Positions 4,774 through 14,895 of a stretch of 37,282 nt of DNA are shown here, one piece after another. Each line of letters starts with the position of its first letter. The first letter of the stretch is position 1. Below the pieces are notes generated by a model. It was not told the DNA's origin, did no database searches, and was given only the letters and a program-made list of their open reading frames with translations. The stretch comes from Candidatus Methylomirabilota bacterium (GTDB lineage Bacteria > Methylomirabilota > Methylomirabilia > Rokubacteriales > CSP1-6): positions 1 through 37,282 of the forward strand of contig DASYUQ010000033.1 in assembly GCA_036001065.1 (NCBI GenBank). Direction: 5' to 3'. The translations under genes and the position numbers were made by a program.

Positions 4774-4824
4774 GCAAGGGTCGACGCGCTCAGGTGGCAG
4801 TCGCCTTGCACCAGAAAGGAGCGT

Positions 4825-4838
4825 GGGGCCAAGCCCCC
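4825..4838. repeat. GGGGCCAAGCCCCC palindrome, copy 1
   Basis: A short GC hairpin (GGGG/CCCC arms around a CCAAG centre) in the leader of the secreted duplicated-domain protein. The same 14 bases recur at 34468-34481 at the end of xerC, so it may be a dispersed palindromic repeat. Confidence 0.5.
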
Positions 4839-4868
4839 AACGTCAGAGTTACAACAAGGAGGAATCCG

Positions 4869-5540
4869 ATGATTCGACGCATCAGCCTGACAGCGTGCGC
4901 GCTCGTTCTGGGGTTGACCCTGGCGGCGGGCGCCGACGAAGTCATCACCGGCACGGTTGTCCGCGTGGATGAGAACGCGGGAGTGATCGTGCTCGACGAC
5001 GCGCGGATGTACCGGGTCGCCGATGGCGACGCCGTGCTGGTAGACATCCGAACGATGGAACTGCGGGAGATCAAGCCCGGAGCGAGAGTGGTCATCCGCT
5101 CCGGCCAGCCGGTCGAGTACCGCGACGGTCAGTACGTCGTGATCACCCAGCCGGGCCTGGCTCCGTCGACCACCGCGACCATCGTGACTCCGCCGCCGCC
5201 ACCGGCGCCGATCGTCCTGACGGAGGGCGTCGTCACGGGGACGGTGTCGGGCGTGGACGCGCCGGCCAGCATGGTGGTTCTCAGCGACGGGCGCACGGTG
5301 CTGATCGGTCCGAAGACCGTCATCCTCGTCGATGGCCGGCCGGTCCATCTCACCGCGCTCGAGCCGGGCGCACGAGTGACCATCAGCGCGGCTAATCCGG
5401 TCGTCTACCGCAACGGCCGCTACGCCCTGCTCAACTCGGGCTTCAGGGATTCGGGGACCGGCAGCTCGCTGTCGTGGGACTCGAAGTGGGCCGGATACGA
5501 GGCGGACATCGATCACGGCGGTATGCAGATCCAGTCGTAG
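4869..5540 (+). CDS. Secreted protein with two DUF1344-like beta domains
   Basis: A 223-aa protein. The start ATG 4869 is fixed by the AAGGAGG SD just upstream and by the signal peptide that follows (MIRRISLTACALVLGLTLAA, cut before or near GADE). Mature residues about 27-93 and 117-183 are two copies of one small beta-rich domain: GTVVRVDENAGVIVLDD...VLVDIRTMELREIKPGARV and GTVSGVDAPASMVVLSD...ILVDGRPVHLTALEPGARV, each ending in PV(E/V)YR(D/N)G(Q/R)Y. A Pro-rich linker (TPPPPPAP) joins them. The fold resembles DUF1344/OB-like modules that bind or modulate in the periplasm; no function is known. Convergent with the efflux operon, with a long stem-loop between. Confidence 0.7.
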   Translation: MIRRISLTACALVLGLTLAAGADEVITGTVVRVDENAGVIVLDDARMYRVADGDAVLVDIRTMELREIKPGARVVIRSGQPVEYRDGQYVVITQPGLAPSTTATIVTPPPPPAPIVLTEGVVTGTVSGVDAPASMVVLSDGRTVLIGPKTVILVDGRPVHLTALEPGARVTISAANPVVYRNGRYALLNSGFRDSGTGSSLSWDSKWAGYEADIDHGGMQIQS

Positions 5541-5585: not shown

Positions 5586-5649
5586 ACGGGCCGGGGCAGG
5601 TTCTGCCGGCGAGTTGTTTTTCGAAGCCGGAGAGCCTGCTCCGGCCCGT
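5586..5649. terminator. Long inverted repeat between convergent genes
   Basis: ACGGGCCGGGGCAGG (5586-5600) pairs with CCTGCTCCGGCCCGT (5635-5649) with 14 of 15 positions complementary, enclosing a 34-nt loop that itself holds a CCGGC/GCCGG stem. It sits between the stop codons of two converging genes and could terminate transcription from both sides, although there is no U-tract after either arm; a T-rich run lies in the loop. Confidence 0.5.
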
Positions 5650-6877
5650 TACTCGTATCGCAGCGCCTCGATCGGGTCGAGCCGCGCGGCTTTGCGCGCG
5701 GGATAGAAGCCGAAGAAGATTCCGATCGTGGCAGCGAACCCGAAGGCCAGCGCGATGGCCTCGGGAGCGACCAGGGTGCGCCAGTCGGCGAGGTAGCTGA
5801 TGGCGCGGGAGCCGGCGAGCCCGAGCGCGATCCCGATCACGCCGCCGATCAGGGAGAGGGTGATGGCCTCGACCAGGAACTGCAGGAGGATGTCGCGCCC
5901 ACGGGCGCCGACGGCCATGCGCAGGCCGATCTCCCGCGTCCGCTCCGTGACCGACACGAGCATGATGTTCATGATGCCGATGCCGCCGACCAGTAGGGAC
6001 ACCGAGGCGATGGCGGCCAGCAGGTACGTCATGACCTTGGACGACTCCTCCTGGGTCTGGAGCACGTCGGCCAAGTTGCGCAGCCAGAAGTCGTCGTCCT
6101 GGTAGGGTTGCAGGCGGTGGCGCTGGCGGAGCAGCGCGCGGATCTGCTCTTCCGCCTCGACCATGTCCTCGCCAGGTCGGATCTTCACCGAAATGGAGCC
6201 GACCGCGCGGGGATTGGACGCAGGGGCGCCCAGCACCTTCTTCTTGGAGGTCGAGATCGGGATGAGGATGACGTCGTCCTGGTCCTGGCCCCACGAGCTC
6301 TGGCCCTTGCGGCTGAGCACGCCGACCGCGGTGAACGGCACCTTCTTGATGCGGATGATCTGGCCGAGCGGATCGGCGTCGCCGAAGAGGTTGAGCGCCG
6401 TCGTCTGCCCGAGCAGGGCGACTTTCGTGGCGCCCTCGACGTCCTCGGGCAGGACCGCCCGTCCCAGGACGACCGGCCAGTCGCGCGCTTCGAAGTAATC
6501 GGCGGTGACGCCCTGGACGATCGTGGACCAGTTGAGGTTGCCGTAGACGACCTGTGCCGACCCCCGGGTCGACGGCGCCGCGACCTGCACGGCGGGCACC
6601 TCGCGGGCGATGGCGGCGGCGTCCTCCTCGGTGATGGTGAGCTGGCTGCCCTGGCCGAGCCGCAGACCGCCCGAGGTGACGCTGCCCGAGAGGACGATGA
6701 TGAGGTTCGAACCCAGGCTCTGGATCTGCTCGGCCACGCGGGCCTGCGCGCCGGCGCCAACGCTGACCATGGCGATCACCGCGCCGACGCCGATGATGAT
6801 GCCGAGCATGGTGAGCGCGCTCCTCAGCTTGTTCACACGGAGCGCGCGCAGCGCGATCCGGGCGGACTGCAGGACGT

Positions 6878-6881
<4 letters not shown>
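5649..6881 (-). CDS. MacB-type ABC transporter permease
   Basis: A 410-aa inner-membrane protein. The N-terminus [20 protein letters not shown] followed by [18 protein letters not shown] is the MacB signature with the first membrane helix; residues about 45-270 form the periplasmic MacB_PCD domain, and the last 130 residues ([20 protein letters not shown], then [15 protein letters not shown] and [20 protein letters not shown]) are the three FtsX helices. In E. coli MacB the ATPase and permease are one chain; here they are separate genes overlapping by ATGA. With the adaptor and TolC genes upstream it should make a mechanotransmission-type tripartite exporter for peptides, siderophores, lipids or toxic compounds. 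Confidence 0.93.
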
Positions 6882-7615
<734 letters not shown>

Positions 7616-7616
7616 G

Positions 7617-9257
7617 TCAGAGCCTGAGCCGCGGACTGCCGCCGCCGGGGCGGCTGGGCGTCCCCGAGCTGCCGACGGCGCCGACGATCACTTCCTGGCC
7701 CTCTTTGAGGTCGCCCCTCAGGACCTCGGTCGCGGTGCCGTCGGTGATGCCGAGCGTGAGGGCGACCGCCTTCGGCTTGCCGTCGGGGCCCGGAACGAAG
7801 GCCCGCCCGGCGAGCCCGCTGCGCCCGTCGCCCGCGAGCTGCTCGTAGCGCGCGCGCTGCTCCGGGGTGAGGATCTCGCCGATCCTGACCCGCGTGGCCT
7901 CGCGGATCTGCTGAGCGCGCGCCTGGCGCTCCTCGGCCCCGAGCGAAGCCCCCGAGAGGGCGGCCATCTGCTGGCGGCCATCCTGAAGGATGGCGTCGAG
8001 CTTGGTCTGCTGATCGGCCGTGAGGCCGAGCCCCTTGACGAGACGCTCGCGCATCTGCTCGCCCGACTGCGGCCCCCCGCCGCTTCCCCGCGGCGGGGCC
8101 CCGCCCCCCGGCGCCGGCAGCCCGCCGGCCTCCGTGCCCGCCGGCCGGAACCGCAGCGCGGCGTTCGGGACCTTGAGGACGTTCGGCTTCTCCGCCACGA
8201 CCACCTTCACGTTGGCCGTCATGCCCGGCAGCAGTCGCCCCTCCGGATTGCCCACGGCGACGACCACGGTGTAGGTGACGACGTTCTGCACGATCTGCGC
8301 CGCCTTGCGGATCTGGACGACGCGTCCGCTGAAGGTGTCGCCGGGGAACGCATCGACCGTGAAGGTGGCCGGGCCATCCAGGTGAATCCGCCCGATGTCC
8401 GCTTCGTCGACGCTCGTCTCCACCTGCATCTTGGTGAGGTCCTGGGCGATCGTGAAGAGCACAGGCGCCTGCAGGCTGGCGGCGACCGTTTGCCCGACGT
8501 CGACCTGGCGCGAGACCACGACGCCGTCGACCGGGGCGCGGATCGTCGTATGGTCGAGGTCGACCTGGGCCTGGCGGAGCGCGGCCTCCTTCTGCTTGAC
8601 CTGGGCGCGCGCCGACTCCAGCTGGGCGTCGGCGACGCGGAGCTGCGCCTGGGCGGAGCCGACGCCCGCGGCGGCGGACTGCTCCTTCGCGCGGGCGGCG
8701 TCCAGGGTGGCCTCGGCCGAGTCGTACGCCGCCTGGGCCGAGTCCAAATCGCTCCGGGCGATCAGCTCACGCCGGGACAGCTCGCCCTTGCGGCCGAGAT
8801 CGCGCTTGGTGTCCACCACCGCGACCTGGGCCCGTGCTGTCTGCGCCCGGGCCTCGGCCTGGGCGGCGCGCGCGTTCTCGACGTCGGCCCGAGCCCGCTC
8901 GACCTGGGCCTGCTGGTTGACCACGGCCGCTCGGGCCGACTCCAACTCGGCGCGCGCCTGATTCACCTTGGCCTCGAACGTTTCGGGATCGATGCGCGCG
9001 ATGACCTGACCCTTGCGGACGACGGAATTGAAGTCGACCAGAAGCTCCTTGATCTGGCCGGAGACCTGGCTGCCCACCTGCACGGTGATCACCGCGTTGA
9101 GGTTGCCGGTGGCGGACACCGCAGCGGTCAGGGGCCCGCGCTCGATGCGGGCCAGCCGGTACTGCTGGGCGCTGCCCCGGCTCTGGACGTAGAAGTATCC
9201 CCAGACGCCGGTGGCGACGACCAGCACGACGAGCCCGAGCCAGAGGAGACGCTTCAT
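7617..9257 (-). CDS. MacA-like periplasmic adaptor with an inserted Spy/LTxxQ segment
   Basis: Membrane-fusion protein of a tripartite efflux pump, 546 aa against about 370-400 for usual MacA. An N-terminal helix ([19 protein letters not shown]) anchors it. A barrel-sandwich half ([19 protein letters not shown]) precedes a long Ala/Gln/Arg-rich coiled-coil hairpin (residues about 92-230), then [20 protein letters not shown] closes the lipoyl domain. The beta-barrel continues to [10 protein letters not shown] (about 365-373). A segment of about 110 residues (genomic about 7806-8138) follows: Gly/Pro linker, then [15 protein letters not shown]...[15 protein letters not shown], two LTxxQ-type motifs as in Spy/CpxP chaperones. 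The last domain ([15 protein letters not shown]) then resumes. ATG 9257 is preferred over the adjacent TTG 9260. No SD. Confidence 0.9.
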
Positions 9258-9305: not shown

Positions 9306-10643
9306 TTACCGCCGTCCGCGGGCGCGATCGAGCCGGTAGAGCGCGATCCGGAAGTCGGCCAGGGCCTGCGTCTCGGTGTTCTGGGTCTGGGTCAGCGCGA
9401 GCTGGGCGTCGGTGAGCTCGAGGATGGTGCCCACGCCGGCATCGAACCGTCCCTGGGCCAGTCGGAAGTTCTCCTGGGCGGAGACCACCGCCGTCTGCGC
9501 GGCCTGGATCCGCTCCTGGGCCTCCTCCACCAAGATCTGCGCCTGCTCCAGCTCGCGCGAGAGGTCCAGCTCGGTGGCGCGCACCCGGGCGCGGGAGGCT
9601 TCGAGGTTGGCCTTGGCCTCACGGTACCGGGCGATGCGGCTCCCCCCGTCGAACAGCGACCAAGAGAGAGACAGCCCCAGCGTCCAGCTCTCGTTGAGGT
9701 CCGTCCGGGTGCCGCCGTAGGTGCCGCTGCCGCTGATGTCGGGGAAGAAGTTGCGGAAGGCCTGGCGCTCCGACGCCTCCGCCGCCTCCACCCGAAGCCT
9801 GGCCTGGCGGTACTCGGGTCGCTGGCGCAGCGCCTCGTCGCGGATCGCGATGCGGTCGAGCGTGACCAGCTCGTACACCAGGTTGTCCTGGACCTGCGTC
9901 GGCGTATCCACTTCGATGCCCATCGCCGTGTTCAGCGCCACCCGCGCCAAGCGCTCGGCGTTGCGGGCCCGGATGAGGTCGACGCGACTGTTAGCGACGT
10001 CCACCTCGGCGCGGGCCACGTCGGACTTGGGCCGGGTCCCGACCTCGAAGAAGCCCCGCGCCGATTTGAGGTTCAACTGGGCGCGGTCCACGGCCTGCTG
10101 GTTCACGCGGATGAGGCGCTGGGCGAAGAGTATGTTCGTGTACGCCTCCTTGACGGCCAGCGCGATGAGCTGACGCTGCAGCTCGATGTCCTCCAGCGCG
10201 ACGGCGGCGAGCTTCTTGGCGGCCTCGGTCGCGGCCATGTTCTTTCCGAAGTCGAAGAGAAGCTGGGAGAGGGCAACCTGAGCCAGGAGGGTGTCGCTCA
10301 TCTCACGGGAGACGAAGACCGGGGCGTTGAGTGTGGCCTGATTGTTGGAGAGAGTGACGCTCTGACTCTTCGTGGCGGTCACCGAGCCCGTGAGCTGGGG
10401 GAGCAGCGGCGCCAGCGCCTGGTCGACGCGGAAGCGGGCCGCCGCGTAGTCGAACAGGCGCGCCTGGATCTGGGGCTGGGACTCCAGCGCGATGGCCACC
10501 GCCTCGTCCAGCGTCAGCAACCGACCCGCGACCTGAGCCGGGGCGGGGGGACCGCCCGGCGTCTGCGCCTTCGCCGGAGCCGTCGGAGTGCAGAGCACGA
10601 GCGCGGCCCCGACCACGGCCGCGACGACGAAGGCCATCCTCAT
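9306..10643 (-). CDS. TolC-family outer-membrane efflux channel
   Basis: A 445-aa outer-membrane factor. ATG 10643 is chosen for its GGAGGAG SD seven bases upstream and the signal peptide MRMAFVVAAVVGAALVLCTP (cleavage near PAKAQ). The rest follows the TolC pattern of two repeated halves with long helices: LLTLDEAVAIALESQPQIQ begins each such protein, then LLFDFGKNMAATEAAKKLA, NQQAVDRAQLNLKSAR, and in the second half RPEYRQARLRVEAAEASER, WSLFDGGSRIARYREAKAN, and FDAGVGTILELTDAQLALTQ near the end. It supplies the outer-membrane exit for the MacA/MacB-like pump encoded just downstream; the gap to the adaptor gene is 48 bp. A longer upstream reading of this frame has no SD and I reject it. Confidence 0.93.
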   Translation of the reverse strand: MRMAFVVAAVVGAALVLCTPTAPAKAQTPGGPPAPAQVAGRLLTLDEAVAIALESQPQIQARLFDYAAARFRVDQALAPLLPQLTGSVTATKSQSVTLSNNQATLNAPVFVSREMSDTLLAQVALSQLLFDFGKNMAATEAAKKLAAVALEDIELQRQLIALAVKEAYTNILFAQRLIRVNQQAVDRAQLNLKSARGFFEVGTRPKSDVARAEVDVANSRVDLIRARNAERLARVALNTAMGIEVDTPTQVQDNLVYELVTLDRIAIRDEALRQRPEYRQARLRVEAAEASERQAFRNFFPDISGSGTYGGTRTDLNESWTLGLSLSWSLFDGGSRIARYREAKANLEASRARVRATELDLSRELEQAQILVEEAQERIQAAQTAVVSAQENFRLAQGRFDAGVGTILELTDAQLALTQTQNTETQALADFRIALYRLDRARGRR

Positions 10644-10786
10644 GCGGGCGCTCCTCCGACCGCGCTCGTGAACACGCGAGTCCGGGCGTGAGGATATCAC
10701 GGCGGCCGCGGGCGTCTCCGGGGGGCGGGGCCCACCGGGGGACAGACAGTGGATGAGCTGTGGATGGTTGGTGGACACCTTTTTTC

Positions 10787-10840
10787 TTGACGGACGCTAC
10801 ATTCTGCGTGCTAGATTTCGGACACCACAAGATATAGTTA
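10787..10840 (+). promoter_or_regulatory. nrdJ promoter region with two NrdR-like boxes
   Basis: Two 16-bp sites resemble the NrdR box acaCwAtATaTwgtgt: ACGCTACATTCTGCGT (10794-10809, 11 of 16) and CCACAAGATATAGTTA (10825-10840, 12 of 16; core CAAGATATAG). Their centres are 31 bp apart, the three-turn spacing usual for NrdR operators. A TTGACG -35 candidate (10787-10792) abuts the first box and a TGc-TAGATT-type -10 (about 10809-10817) or TATAGT (10833-10838) lies between or within them, so the ATP/dATP-sensing repressor NrdR would cover the promoter. The assignment is by pattern only. Confidence 0.6.
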
Positions 10841-10923
10841 TAGGAGGGGGTCTGCTCAGGGTCCGCCGGCAGGGTCAGCGGCGCGACCATTCCAGGGTGT
10901 TCGAGCGAAAGGAGGAAAGGAGC

Positions 10924-13900
10924 ATGCTGTCGGAAAGCCGCCCGGCGAAGGTCGGCAAGTGGACGGAACCCGCTCTCCGCGTACTCCGCGAGCGCTACCT
11001 CACGCGCAGGGATGGGGAGGTGGTCGAGACCCCGGAGGAGATGTGCTGGCGGGTGGCCCAGTCCATTGCCGCCGGTGAGGCGCGCTACGGGCGCAGCCCG
11101 GCGGCCGTGCGGGAGATCGCCGAGGCCTTCTACGACATGATGGTGGACGGCTACTTCCTGCCGAACTCTCCCACGCTCATGAACGCCGGAAAGGGCAACG
11201 GCCTGCAGTACTCCGCGTGTTACGTGCTCCCGGTCGGCGACTCGATGGAGGAGATCTTCGACTCGGTGAAGGCGGCGGCGATCATCCACAAGTGCCTTGT
11301 CGCCGACACCTGGGTCATGAGCAATGGGCTGACCCGTCTAAGCGAGGTCCCAGACGGCGCCCTGGTCATGACCGACGAGGGTCCCTTCCATGTCAGCGCG
11401 TGGCACGACAACGGCGAGCAGCCCGTCTTCGAGGTCCGGACGAACCGGGGCTACCGGATCGTCGGGACCGCCGAACACCGGTTGCTGGTCGTCGCTGACG
11501 ACGGTTCCTATGGCTGGCGGAAGATCGGCGAGCTCCGCGGAGGCGACTGGCTCGTCATGAAGCCAGGGCCCTGGATCTGCGGTGAGACGAAGCTCCCGGA
11601 GTTCGAATTCGCTCAGAAGCGGGGCGGAAACTGCACCAGCTTCAGAGCCACGGAATACCGCTTGCCCAGGGAGTTGACGCCCGCCCTGGCGGAACTCATC
11701 GGTCTCTACATCGGTGATGGCTCGAACCATCGCGACGGCATCCGCGTCACGGTCAGCCGGGAGTGTCCCGAGGTCGTCCGGAGGATCGAAGAGACCAGCT
11801 TCGCGCTGTTCGGCAAGCGGGCTTCGATCAGTTACGATGCCCGGAAGCACACGTTTGAAGTCGCAATCTTGAGTACCCAGATCAAGGCATGGTTCGACTT
11901 CCTTGGCGTGACGAAGGCCTCGGCCCGCGAGGCCCAGATCCCGCCGATCATCCTCCGGAGCACCGAAGAAGTGGCCTGTGCTTTCGTGCGTGGGCTCTTC
12001 ACGGCCGACGGATGTGTCCGCAAGAACGGCCACATCACTCTGACGACGATCTCACCGCGACTGGCCGAAGACCTTCAGAGCCTGTTGCTGGCCCTCGGCG
12101 TGCCGACGCACCTGCGCAAAGACGTCTGGGCCTCGGGCTATGAGGTCTACCAGGTCTCCGTCTGCACCAAGGCAGGATTCCGGATGTTCCGGCGGAAGAT
12201 CGGATTCATCGCTGGACGCAAAGCGGCACGCCTGGCGGCCGTCGATGAGGACGCGATCTTCGTGAAGGGTGAAACGATCCCGAATCAGCGGCGCAGACTC
12301 CGCACGTGGTATGACGGACTTCCGGCGGACCAGCGGCGGCAGGCAAAGAGGCTGTTCGACGACCTGCTCAATCGAGTCACAGCCCCCAGGGAACTGAGCC
12401 GGCAGCGGATTACGGCCGCCTTGAAGGGCTCGGGGCCATTCCCGTCGTTCTTCGAGGAGTTGGCGAAGGATGACTTCTTTTTCGTCCGCGTCACGGCGAT
12501 CCGTCCGGCCGGCATTCGTCGCGTCTACGATCTGACCGTTCCCGAGAAGCACGCTTATATCGCAAACGGGTTTGCGGCGCACAATAGCGGGGGGGGCACG
12601 GGCTTTGCGTTCTCTCGCCTGCGCCCGAAAGACGACATCGTCACCTCCACCGGTGGACGGGCCTCCGGGCCGGTGTCCTTCCTCCGCGTGTTCAACGGCG
12701 CGACGGAGGCCGTGAAGCAGGGCGGCACCCGTCGCGGCGCTAACATGGGGATCCTGAGGGTCGATCACCCCGACATCCTCGAGTTCATCGAGTGCAAGCT
12801 GGACGGGGGCATCACCAACTTCAACATCTCCGTCGCCGCCACCAACGCCTTCATGGAGGCCCTGGAGAAGGGCGAGGACTACGACCTCATCAACCCGCGC
12901 AACGGCAAGCCGATCGGGCGCCTCTCGGCCCCGGAGGTGTTCCGGCGCGTCGTCGCGGCCGCCTGGCGCACGGGCGATCCGGGCATGGTCTTCATCGACC
13001 GGATCAACGCCAGCCCGGCGAACCCCACGCCCGAGATCGGGATGATCGAGGCGACCAATCCCTGCGTCACGGGCGACACGCGGGTGGCCACGCCCGAAGG
13101 GTGGCGTCGAGCCGACGCCGTTCGCGCGGGCGGCCTCATCCTCACCGTCGACGGTCCTCGGCCTGTCGAGCGCGTGGAGATCAATCCGAATACTCCGATC
13201 TTCCGGGTCGACTTCTCGGACGGCGGCGGCCTTCGGGTCACCGCCAGCCATCAATTCCACGTCTACCGGCAGGGCGCCGGGTTCCTCCCGACCCGCCTGG
13301 ACCGGTGTCATGTCGGCGACGAGGTCCAGACGCTCCACGCCGGGGTGTTCGGGGCGGCCAAGATCCTGCGCATCGAAGCGGTCGGCGTCGCCACGACGTA
13401 CGACCTCTACGAGCCGGAAACAGACACGTGGATCACCGAGGGGTACATCTCCCGGGGGTGCGGGGAGCAACCGCTCCTGCCGAACGAGGCCTGCAACCTC
13501 GGCTCGCTCAACGTGTCGAAGTTCGCGCGGCGGGGAGCCGATGGGGAGTGGTCCGTCGACTGGGAGGAGATGGAGCGCGTCATCCGGCTGGCCGTCCGGT
13601 TCCTCGACGACGTCATCGAGATGAACCCGTACCCGCTGCCCGCGATCGATGCCACCGTGAAGGCCAACCGCCGCATCGGCCTGGGTATCATGGGCTGGGC
13701 CGACCTGCTCTTCATCCTCGGCATCCCGTACGACAGCCAGGAGGCGATCAACCTCGCCGAGCGCCTGATGTCGTTCGTGAAGGACAAGGCCCACGACCAG
13801 TCCGCCAAGCTGGCCGAGGAGCGCGGGCCCTTCCCGAACTGGGGAGACTCTATCTACCGGAACGTGGGGCCTATGCGGAACTCGACGGTCACCACGATCG

Positions 13901-14895
13901 CCCCCACCGGGACGATCTCGATGATCGCCGGCTGCTCGTCGGGCATCGAGCCGATCTTCGCGCTGGCCTTCGAGCATCGCGTCAAGCAGCCGGACGGGGA
14001 GCGCGTGCTGACGTTCGTCAACGAGACCTTCGAGTGGCTGGCCAAGGAGCAGGGGATCTACTCCGATGCGCTCATGCAGGAGATCGCGCACCGGGGCTCG
14101 CTGCACGGCATCCCGGGGCTGCCGGAGGACGCGGCGCGCGTGTTCAAGACCTCGCACGAGATCGGCTACGAGTGGCACGTGCGCCATCAGGCGGCCTTCC
14201 AGCGCTACACCGACAACGGCGTCAGCAAGACCATCAACCTGCCCAACAACGCCACCGAGGAAGACGTCGCCAGTGCCTATCGTCTGGCCTGGCAGCTCGG
14301 CTGCCTGGGCATCACCGTCTTCCGCGACGGCTGCAAGGGCGAGCAGGTCCTGAACGTCGGCATCAAGAAGGACAAGGCGGTCGCCCCCGCGTCGGCGGGT
14401 CCGGTCGTCATCAAGCCGCGGCCACACAGCCTGAGCGGCACGACGTACCGCACCGAGACGCCGATCGGCACGGCGTTCATCACCGTCAACGAAACTCCCG
14501 ACCGCGAGCCCTTCGAGGTCTTCGTCCAGGTAGGCAAAGCGGGCTCGGACACCATGGCGGTCGCCGAGGCTCTTGGACGGCTGATTTCGCTCGTTCTGAG
14601 GCTGCCTTCGCCGCTATCGGCTCAGCGACGGCTCGAAGAGGTCATCAGCCAGCTCAGCCGAATCGGAGGTGGCCAGCCGACTGGCTTCGGCCTTGCCAAG
14701 ATCCTGTCGCTCCCCGATGCGATCGCCCGCACCCTGGCCGAGCACATCGGCCAGCTCAAGCCCGCCAACGACTTCGCGGCGGCCGCGACGGGCCGGAAGA
14801 CCATCGGCGATCTCTGCAAGGAATGCGGCCAGGCGACCTTCATCTACGAGGAAGGTTGCAAGAAGTGCCTGTCGTGCGGGTTCAACGAGTGCTGA
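10924..14895 (+). CDS. nrdJ: B12-dependent (class II) ribonucleotide reductase with two inteins
   Basis: Adenosylcobalamin-dependent reductase that makes deoxyribonucleotides. The precursor is 1323 aa; removing two inteins (431 and 132 aa) leaves 760, normal for NrdJ. The start ATG 10924 follows an AAAGGAGG SD. Landmarks: NSPTLMNAG and LQYSACYVLPV (redox Cys99), SGGGTGFAFSRLRP, NPC^GEQPLLPNEACNLGS (thiyl-radical Cys846 and partner Cys857, 11 residues apart as in Thermotoga NrdJ), TIAPTGTISMIAGCSSGIEP, and a C-terminal Cys-rich zinc-like tail (CKECGQ...CKKCLSCGFNEC). Intein 1 interrupts HK^SGGGTG, intein 2 interrupts NP^CGEQ; both sites are in active-site loops. It is monocistronic between a NrdR-like operator and a strong hairpin. 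Enzyme function depends on both inteins leaving. Confidence 0.96.
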   Translation: MLSESRPAKVGKWTEPALRVLRERYLTRRDGEVVETPEEMCWRVAQSIAAGEARYGRSPAAVREIAEAFYDMMVDGYFLPNSPTLMNAGKGNGLQYSACYVLPVGDSMEEIFDSVKAAAIIHKCLVADTWVMSNGLTRLSEVPDGALVMTDEGPFHVSAWHDNGEQPVFEVRTNRGYRIVGTAEHRLLVVADDGSYGWRKIGELRGGDWLVMKPGPWICGETKLPEFEFAQKRGGNCTSFRATEYRLPRELTPALAELIGLYIGDGSNHRDGIRVTVSRECPEVVRRIEETSFALFGKRASISYDARKHTFEVAILSTQIKAWFDFLGVTKASAREAQIPPIILRSTEEVACAFVRGLFTADGCVRKNGHITLTTISPRLAEDLQSLLLALGVPTHLRKDVWASGYEVYQVSVCTKAGFRMFRRKIGFIAGRKAARLAAVDEDAIFVKGETIPNQRRRLRTWYDGLPADQRRQAKRLFDDLLNRVTAPRELSRQRITAALKGSGPFPSFFEELAKDDFFFVRVTAIRPAGIRRVYDLTVPEKHAYIANGFAAHNSGGGTGFAFSRLRPKDDIVTSTGGRASGPVSFLRVFNGATEAVKQGGTRRGANMGILRVDHPDILEFIECKLDGGITNFNISVAATNAFMEALEKGEDYDLINPRNGKPIGRLSAPEVFRRVVAAAWRTGDPGMVFIDRINASPANPTPEIGMIEATNPCVTGDTRVATPEGWRRADAVRAGGLILTVDGPRPVERVEINPNTPIFRVDFSDGGGLRVTASHQFHVYRQGAGFLPTRLDRCHVGDEVQTLHAGVFGAAKILRIEAVGVATTYDLYEPETDTWITEGYISRGCGEQPLLPNEACNLGSLNVSKFARRGADGEWSVDWEEMERVIRLAVRFLDDVIEMNPYPLPAIDATVKANRRIGLGIMGWADLLFILGIPYDSQEAINLAERLMSFVKDKAHDQSAKLAEERGPFPNWGDSIYRNVGPMRNSTVTTIAPTGTISMIAGCSSGIEPIFALAFEHRVKQPDGERVLTFVNETFEWLAKEQGIYSDALMQEIAHRGSLHGIPGLPEDAARVFKTSHEIGYEWHVRHQAAFQRYTDNGVSKTINLPNNATEEDVASAYRLAWQLGCLGITVFRDGCKGEQVLNVGIKKDKAVAPASAGPVVIKPRPHSLSGTTYRTETPIGTAFITVNETPDREPFEVFVQVGKAGSDTMAVAEALGRLISLVLRLPSPLSAQRRLEEVISQLSRIGGGQPTGFGLAKILSLPDAIARTLAEHIGQLKPANDFAAAATGRKTIGDLCKECGQATFIYEEGCKKCLSCGFNEC
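11293..12585 (+). mobile_element. Intein 1 of NrdJ, with LAGLIDADG homing endonuclease
   Basis: Precursor residues 124-554 (431 aa). Starts with Cys (CLVADTWVMS, block A), has block B GTAEHRLLVV with the T-x-x-H, and ends with block F VYDLTVPEKHAYIANGFAAHN: the His543, His553 and Asn554 needed for C-terminal cleavage are present, with Ser as +1 extein residue. Between the splicing blocks are two LAGLIDADG-type motifs, LIGLYIGDG (acidic residue D265) and FVRGLFTADG (D362), so the homing nuclease looks intact. It appears a standard class 1 intein, able to splice and to home. The codon/base texture looks a little less GC-rich than the flanking nrdJ by eye. Confidence 0.95.
13063..13458 (+). mobile_element. 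Intein 2 of NrdJ: mini-intein with atypical C-terminus
   Basis: Precursor residues 714-845 (132 aa), with no endonuclease. Block A (CVTGDTRVATPEGW) starts with Cys and block B (LRVTASHQFHVY) has T-x-x-H, so the N-terminal half is complete. The C-terminal half aligns as TTYDLYEPETDTWITEGYISRG: the block F His position is Trp, and the usual His-Asn end is Arg-Gly. The +1 residue is Cys846, the thiyl-radical cysteine of NrdJ. The boundaries are set by continuity of the NPCGEQPLLP motif. Without Asn cyclisation ordinary splicing should not complete; it may be decayed, use other chemistry, or be spliced in a way not predictable from sequence. Confidence 0.85.

Follow-up and report, generated by a model that had tools for sequence, protein, structure and literature searches.

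MacA, the periplasmic adaptor of the MacAB–TolC pump of E. coli, is a hexamer. The LTXXQ superfamily includes chaperones, such as Spy, as well as signal sensors, such as CpxP and CnrX, and in the cnr metal-response system the genes are laid out in the order sigma factor, anti-sigma factor, LTXXQ-type sensor and pump. MacAB transports substrates that have already reached the periplasm, peptides among them (PMC5985334), and the membrane-proximal (MP) domains of adaptors have been proposed to act in substrate presentation (PMC4446572). Spy, a four-helix dimer, uses a positively charged cradle to hold unfolded proteins (PMC8144458). A binding protein fused to an adaptor has a precedent in SilB, which carries a C-terminal CusF-type chaperone domain (PMC4446572). 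The adaptor-borne LTXXQ domain analysed here gives a direct, testable lead both to what MacB-family pumps naturally export and to the route by which periplasmic substrates reach them.

The adaptor gene and its operon

The window, by which we mean the whole stretch of 37,282 nucleotides analysed, comes from a soil bacterium of the Rokubacteriales and contains an operon-like run of four genes on the minus strand:

9306 to 10778, minus strand: TolC-family outer-membrane channel, the first gene of the operon (TIGR01844, E = 1.2e-46)
7617 to 9257, minus strand: MacA-like periplasmic adaptor, 546 amino acids (TIGR01730 and PRK11578 profiles; Foldseek matches to MacA)
6878 to 7615, minus strand: MacB-type ATPase, a separate gene (N-terminal part of PRK10535 MacB, E = 8e-76)
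5649 to 6881, minus strand: MacB-type permease, a separate gene (C-terminal part of PRK10535 MacB, E = 8e-87)

The adaptor starts with an ATG at 9257, immediately preceded by an in-frame TTG. It scored 175.5 bits against the TIGR01730 RND_mfp profile (cut-off 94.9) and 161.7 bits against PRK11578 MacA; the latter score is under the equivalog cut-off of 342 (NF008606), and we therefore refer to the protein as MacA-like and do not claim that it is a MacA orthologue. The AlphaFold2 model of the whole adaptor had a mean pLDDT of 90.6, and its top Foldseek matches were the MacA structures 9qgy, 5nik and 3fpp (best E = 5e-29). Consistent with membership of the adaptor family, hairpin, lipoyl, barrel and MP domains were all present in the model and its matches, and MacB genes and a TolC-type channel are encoded alongside in the window. 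The channel scored 159.6 bits against TIGR01844, under the cut-off of 225. A scan for promoters and terminators found none.

Two other genes were recorded in the window. A plus-strand gene at 4794-5540, which converges on the permease gene, encodes a small protein with a sub-threshold DUF1344 match and two halves that are alike (ITGTVVRVDENAGVIVLDD / VTGTVSGVDAPASMVVLSD). Also on the plus strand, 10753-14895 encodes the large subunit of a ribonucleotide reductase, split by an intein in which Pfam identifies a LAGLIDADG domain; farther on we noted by eye an apparent second intein-like stretch of about 130 amino acids, CVTGDTRVATPEGW ... WITEGYISRG before CGEQPLLP, which lacks the usual C-terminal His-Asn.

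Position and family of the inserted domain

Alignment of the adaptor to insert-less relatives revealed extra residues that start after ALRFRP (residues 367-372) and end before residue 486. The coordinates given in the preliminary description, 7806-8138, were correct and correspond to adaptor residues 374-484 on the minus strand. The parts of the insert and the segment that follows it are:

7806 to 8138, minus strand: whole insert, linker plus LTXXQ domain, residues 374-484, with the start at about 373 (alignment to insert-less relatives; PF07813 match)
8064 to 8138, minus strand: Gly/Pro-rich linker, residues 374-398 (pLDDT below 50 at 384-394; length and sequence vary among relatives)
7830 to 8063, minus strand: four-helix LTXXQ domain, residues 399-476 (AlphaFold2 helices, pLDDT about 93-97)
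8010 to 8024, minus strand: first LTxxQ motif, LTADQ, residues 412-416 (L and Q invariant in 29 inserts and 23 stand-alone LTXXQ proteins)
7857 to 7871, minus strand: second LTxxQ motif, LTPEQ, residues 463-467 (L and Q invariant in the same 29 inserts and 23 stand-alone proteins)
7620 to 7814, minus strand: C-terminal strands, apparently of the MP domain (residues 482-528), and tail (AlphaFold2 strands; weak alignment to MacA 331-365)

In the AlphaFold2 model, a disordered linker (384-394) precedes helices at 399-410, 414-436, 441-462 and 465-476, and C-terminal strands follow at 482-489, 495-505, 509-515 and 522-528; the insert modelled alone had a pLDDT of 83. Aligned to E. coli MacA, the adaptor can be followed as far as MacA residue 315 and again, weakly, from 331, and the insertion site is the loop that matches MacA residues of about 316-330. 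The strands flanking the insert, 347-364 and 482-528, both appear in the model to belong to the MP domain. Together with the break in the MacA alignment, this places the insert inside the MP domain, slightly off from the position between the beta-barrel and the MP domain proposed originally. The same loop is variable in other phyla, where the alignment contained mostly Gly/Pro-rich or unrelated sequence.

We found that the insert alone matches the Pfam LTXXQ family (PF07813) with E = 2.9e-7 and 31.6 bits (cut-off 24.3), and with 33.1 bits when trimmed to 90 amino acids. In a scan of the whole protein the same match scored 16.8 bits, under the cut-off, so routine annotation would miss the domain. 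All 29 homologous inserts matched PF07813 at E <= 0.1, and a search of 177,635 PDB sequences with the insert profile returned E. coli Spy first (1.2e-6), with CpxP lower down (E = 3). Profile-profile comparison of the inserts with the phylum's stand-alone LTXXQ proteins gave E = 2.5e-12. Seven columns are invariant in the insert alignment (n = 29) and six in that of the stand-alone proteins (n = 23), in both cases including the L and Q of both motifs; the two LTxxQ motifs form the conserved core of the inserted domain. Foldseek searches with the model of the isolated domain returned STV, CnrX and Spy on top, weakly and with no E below 0.09, so the structure supports the LTXXQ family without proving membership. 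These results confirm that the insert consists of the linker and a helical domain of 80 residues of the LTXXQ (Spy/CpxP/CnrX) superfamily. The earlier reading, a MacA-type adaptor with an LTxxQ module, was therefore upheld: the Pfam cut-off is passed, Spy is the top PDB match, both motifs are conserved, and the similarity to Spy/LTXXQ profiles, whose absence would have counted against it, was found.

One could suppose that a Gln/Arg-rich helical stretch resembles the LTxxQ motif by chance, given the low-complexity Gly/Pro/Ala flanks and the full-length PF07813 score under the cut-off. This explanation is hardly credible and was rejected: 29 of 29 inserts match, Spy comes first in the PDB, none of ten composition-preserving shuffles of the insert matched LTXXQ, the profile-profile E value is 2.5e-12 and stand-alone homologues occur in operons of the same type. 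We also considered that the domain binds metal, like CnrX, ZraP or the CusF-type domain of SilB, and feeds a metal exporter. Weak matches to Metal_resist (PF13801) and CnrX as a structural neighbour speak for such a role, but the 29 inserts total no Cys and five His, a count that speaks against a CnrX-type metal site of several His, and the pump is of the MacB type rather than a heavy-metal RND pump. Because of this residue count in particular, we regard a metal role as very unlikely.

Fused and separate LTXXQ domains in pump operons

Most adaptors of the Rokubacteriales retain the domain, with about 64% amino acid identity. Among orthologues, differences at the three codon positions were 0.228, 0.211 and 0.424 in the insert, compared with 0.160, 0.124 and 0.363 in the adaptor core. 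The insert is therefore less constrained than the core, yet plainly coding, with an excess of third-position change that fits selection. Among 95 genomes of the phylum, insert-bearing adaptors were common in the window's family and were found in two further families of the order, and some genomes that have one also hold insert-less paralogues. Beyond the phylum, the insert profile matched in 30 of 385 sampled Alphaproteobacteria genomes, 24 of the matches being in reading frames of at least 505 amino acids. Nineteen of 20 such loci that we read encode MacA-like adaptors, nearly all followed by MacB genes on the contig. The recommended survey of other adaptors thus found the insertion to be widespread in the Rokubacteriales and present in several Alphaproteobacteria. 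The twentieth locus (L283) encodes a different type of adaptor, which carries an LTxxQ-like stretch at its C terminus (6953-8809, minus strand; LNLDPGQQQ ... ILRPEQKAK), apparently a separate, independent fusion. The profile also matched in 98 of 297 Acidobacteriota genomes, nearly always in short stand-alone proteins; at two loci of this phylum (L298 and L299), stand-alone LTXXQ genes adjoin pairs of MacB-like permease genes.

The adaptor tree requires at least ten changes. In a quick search, one side of it (SH-aLRT 94) took up most insert-bearing rows from the Rokubacteriales and Alphaproteobacteria, a pattern that agrees with a single gain, several losses and transfer from phylum to phylum; the tree of the domain itself has too few columns to settle a single versus a multiple origin. 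In two adaptors (L027 and L152), the loop between ALRFRP and GRVW holds a shortened remnant, KLSEDHAKKL, which agrees with deletion of part of the domain. Some adaptors of the same group have lost the domain, and it is therefore not essential for a working pump.

Losses of this kind, probably several, also speak for a structural spacer or oligomerisation module, in which an antiparallel helical domain steadies the adaptor hexamer or widens its entrance. LTXXQ proteins such as Spy dimerise through coiled coils (PMC8144458), and the loop accepts many unrelated insertions in other phyla. Against this, the LTxxQ motif residues are invariant, a spacer has no need to look like a partner protein encoded in the operon, and adaptors of this group that lack the insert still occur with unchanged partners. 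We therefore consider a purely structural role improbable.

Such a partner is found in many insert-less relatives, in which a separate LTXXQ gene heads the same pump operon, usually preceded by two genes, one for an ECF sigma factor and one for a short anti-sigma factor of zinc-finger-like type; the arrangement resembles a CnrHYX cassette, but with an ABC pump. An LTXXQ gene ahead of an adaptor that has no insert occurs in four of the phylum's families (the L199, L186 and L196 groups, and the window's own family with L144, L147 and L153), in Aminicenantes (L055, L056 and L065) and in one Acidobacteriota genome (L050/L306). The operons in which LTXXQ genes come before MacA- and MacB-type genes, mostly with the sigma and anti-sigma genes in front, are L144, L147, L153, L155, L157-L160, L162, L184-L188, L190-L192, L196-L200, L203, L055, L056, L065 and L306. 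Two tandem LTXXQ genes occur in L162, L197 and L198, and in three genomes (L199, L200 and L203) 4 bp separate the LTXXQ and adaptor genes. The sigma domains were clear by Pfam; the anti-sigma genes are named from their zinc-finger-like N terminus and gene order, the Pfam zf-HC2 match being marginal in one and absent in another.

We next compared insert and cassette across a set of loci from which near-copies, and those with little sequence upstream, had been dropped. None of 40 insert-bearing operons had the cassette, compared with 18 of 45 insert-less ones (the remaining 27 had neither). Neither the window's operon nor any other checkable insert-bearing locus of the phylum has the cassette upstream; an insert-bearing alphaproteobacterial locus (L280) has an ECF sigma gene upstream and no LTXXQ gene. 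A test of exclusion corrected for kinship had only five usable pairs and no power. Because the events share ancestry, we report the exclusion as a raw, descriptive count, and the pattern rests on few independent events. From this distribution we conclude that the domain is a partner of the pump operon, either separate or fused. Since adaptors of other phyla have no insert, a separate protein that was later fused would be the simpler order. The three loci of the window's own family, L144, L147 and L153, sit inside the insert-bearing part of the tree, lack the insert and have a longer, Spy-like LTXXQ gene instead; here the fused domain was apparently lost and a separate one took its place.

Proposed role and comparison with known systems

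One possible explanation, which we hold to be about evenly balanced between right and wrong, is that the LTXXQ domain was once a separate periplasmic partner of the pump and now sits in the MP loop of the adaptor, binding polypeptide or amphipathic ligands for the pump. A separate periplasmic LTXXQ protein would have worked with a MacAB–TolC-type pump and then been built into the MP-domain loop. Up to six copies of the domain would be tethered there, close to where the MacB-type permease opens to the periplasm; they would bind periplasmic polypeptides or amphipathic ligands and either hand them to the pump or promote pump activity on binding. In relatives, the separate LTXXQ protein probably responds to ligands of the same kind, which would release the ECF sigma factor and switch the pump on. 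Hand-over of ligands fits the use by MacB of substrates already in the periplasm. The presence of the LTXXQ partner in related operons suggests that periplasmic protein sensing or holding is part of the pump's job, and the original proposal that the pump handles or senses misfolded peptides is plausible from the sequences. At about 80 amino acids, however, the domain is short and may not form the dimeric cradle of Spy, whose PDB construct has 138, and the net charge of the domain is only about +2, whereas the binding face of Spy is strongly positive (PMC8144458).

Because stand-alone relatives lie in sigma/anti-sigma cassettes, sensing is indicated at least as much as chaperoning. The strongest rival is accordingly a role in sensing alone, since these relatives are placed like CnrX: a domain of CnrX/CpxP-like descent would report the envelope state or a ligand to the pump, by gating or by stimulating its ATPase, and carry no substrate. 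The cnr-like layout of the sigma, anti-sigma, LTXXQ and pump operons and the many CnrX entries among the Foldseek neighbours agree with this alternative, but the cassette is kept in none of the 40 non-redundant insert-bearing operons, so the regulatory partner was not retained beside the fusion. We regard a sensing-only role as possible though unlikely. We would put forward with similar reserve, as a rather doubtful combination of both ideas, that a CnrX/CpxP-like polypeptide sensor, once the inducer of the pump through an ECF sigma/anti-sigma pair, was absorbed into the adaptor and now itself binds those periplasmic polypeptides and delivers them for export. If this were true, the pump would be an exporter for periplasmic protein quality control.

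The domain matters because it is conserved and operon-linked, belongs to a family that binds or senses polypeptides and is carried on an adaptor beside the permease. The operons with sigma, anti-sigma, LTXXQ and MacAB genes in several phyla suggest a widespread ABC-pump counterpart of the cnr layout. We found no description of an LTXXQ fusion to an adaptor, or of sigma/LTXXQ/MacAB operons, in the open-access literature, which is not proof of absence. The association with the cassette and the repeated fusion are a more interesting result than the insert itself. Overall, the interpretation that we started from was supported in part: it stood as to the LTxxQ module in a MacA-type adaptor, to which the separate-gene partner in related operons and the L283 fusion lend support, and changed as to the insertion site, which is within the MP domain.

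Compared with MacA of E. coli (3fpp, 5nik and 9qgy), the window's adaptor has the same domain order and predicted membrane anchor, and hairpin, lipoyl, barrel and MP domains and partner genes in common, but differs in about 110 extra residues in the loop at MacA 316-330 and in a MacB that is split into two genes. The insert shares with Spy and CpxP (PF07813) a profile match, four helices and a pair of LTxxQ motifs that follow each other in the same order; it is shorter, has a smaller gap between the motifs and is part of a pump adaptor rather than a free dimer. As in SilB, the adaptor of a tripartite pump has been joined to a periplasmic binding protein that is also known in free form, although the SilB domain is a CusF-type beta-barrel at the C terminus that serves metal cargo and an RND pump, whereas the domain described here is internal. 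The stand-alone relatives most resemble CnrX, encoded with CnrH and CnrY in Cupriavidus: they too are short, have an N-terminal hydrophobic segment and come after ECF sigma and anti-sigma genes and before an exporter. By contrast, the insert lacks Cys and has hardly any His, the window has no cassette, and the exporter beside these LTXXQ genes is a MacB-type ABC pump.
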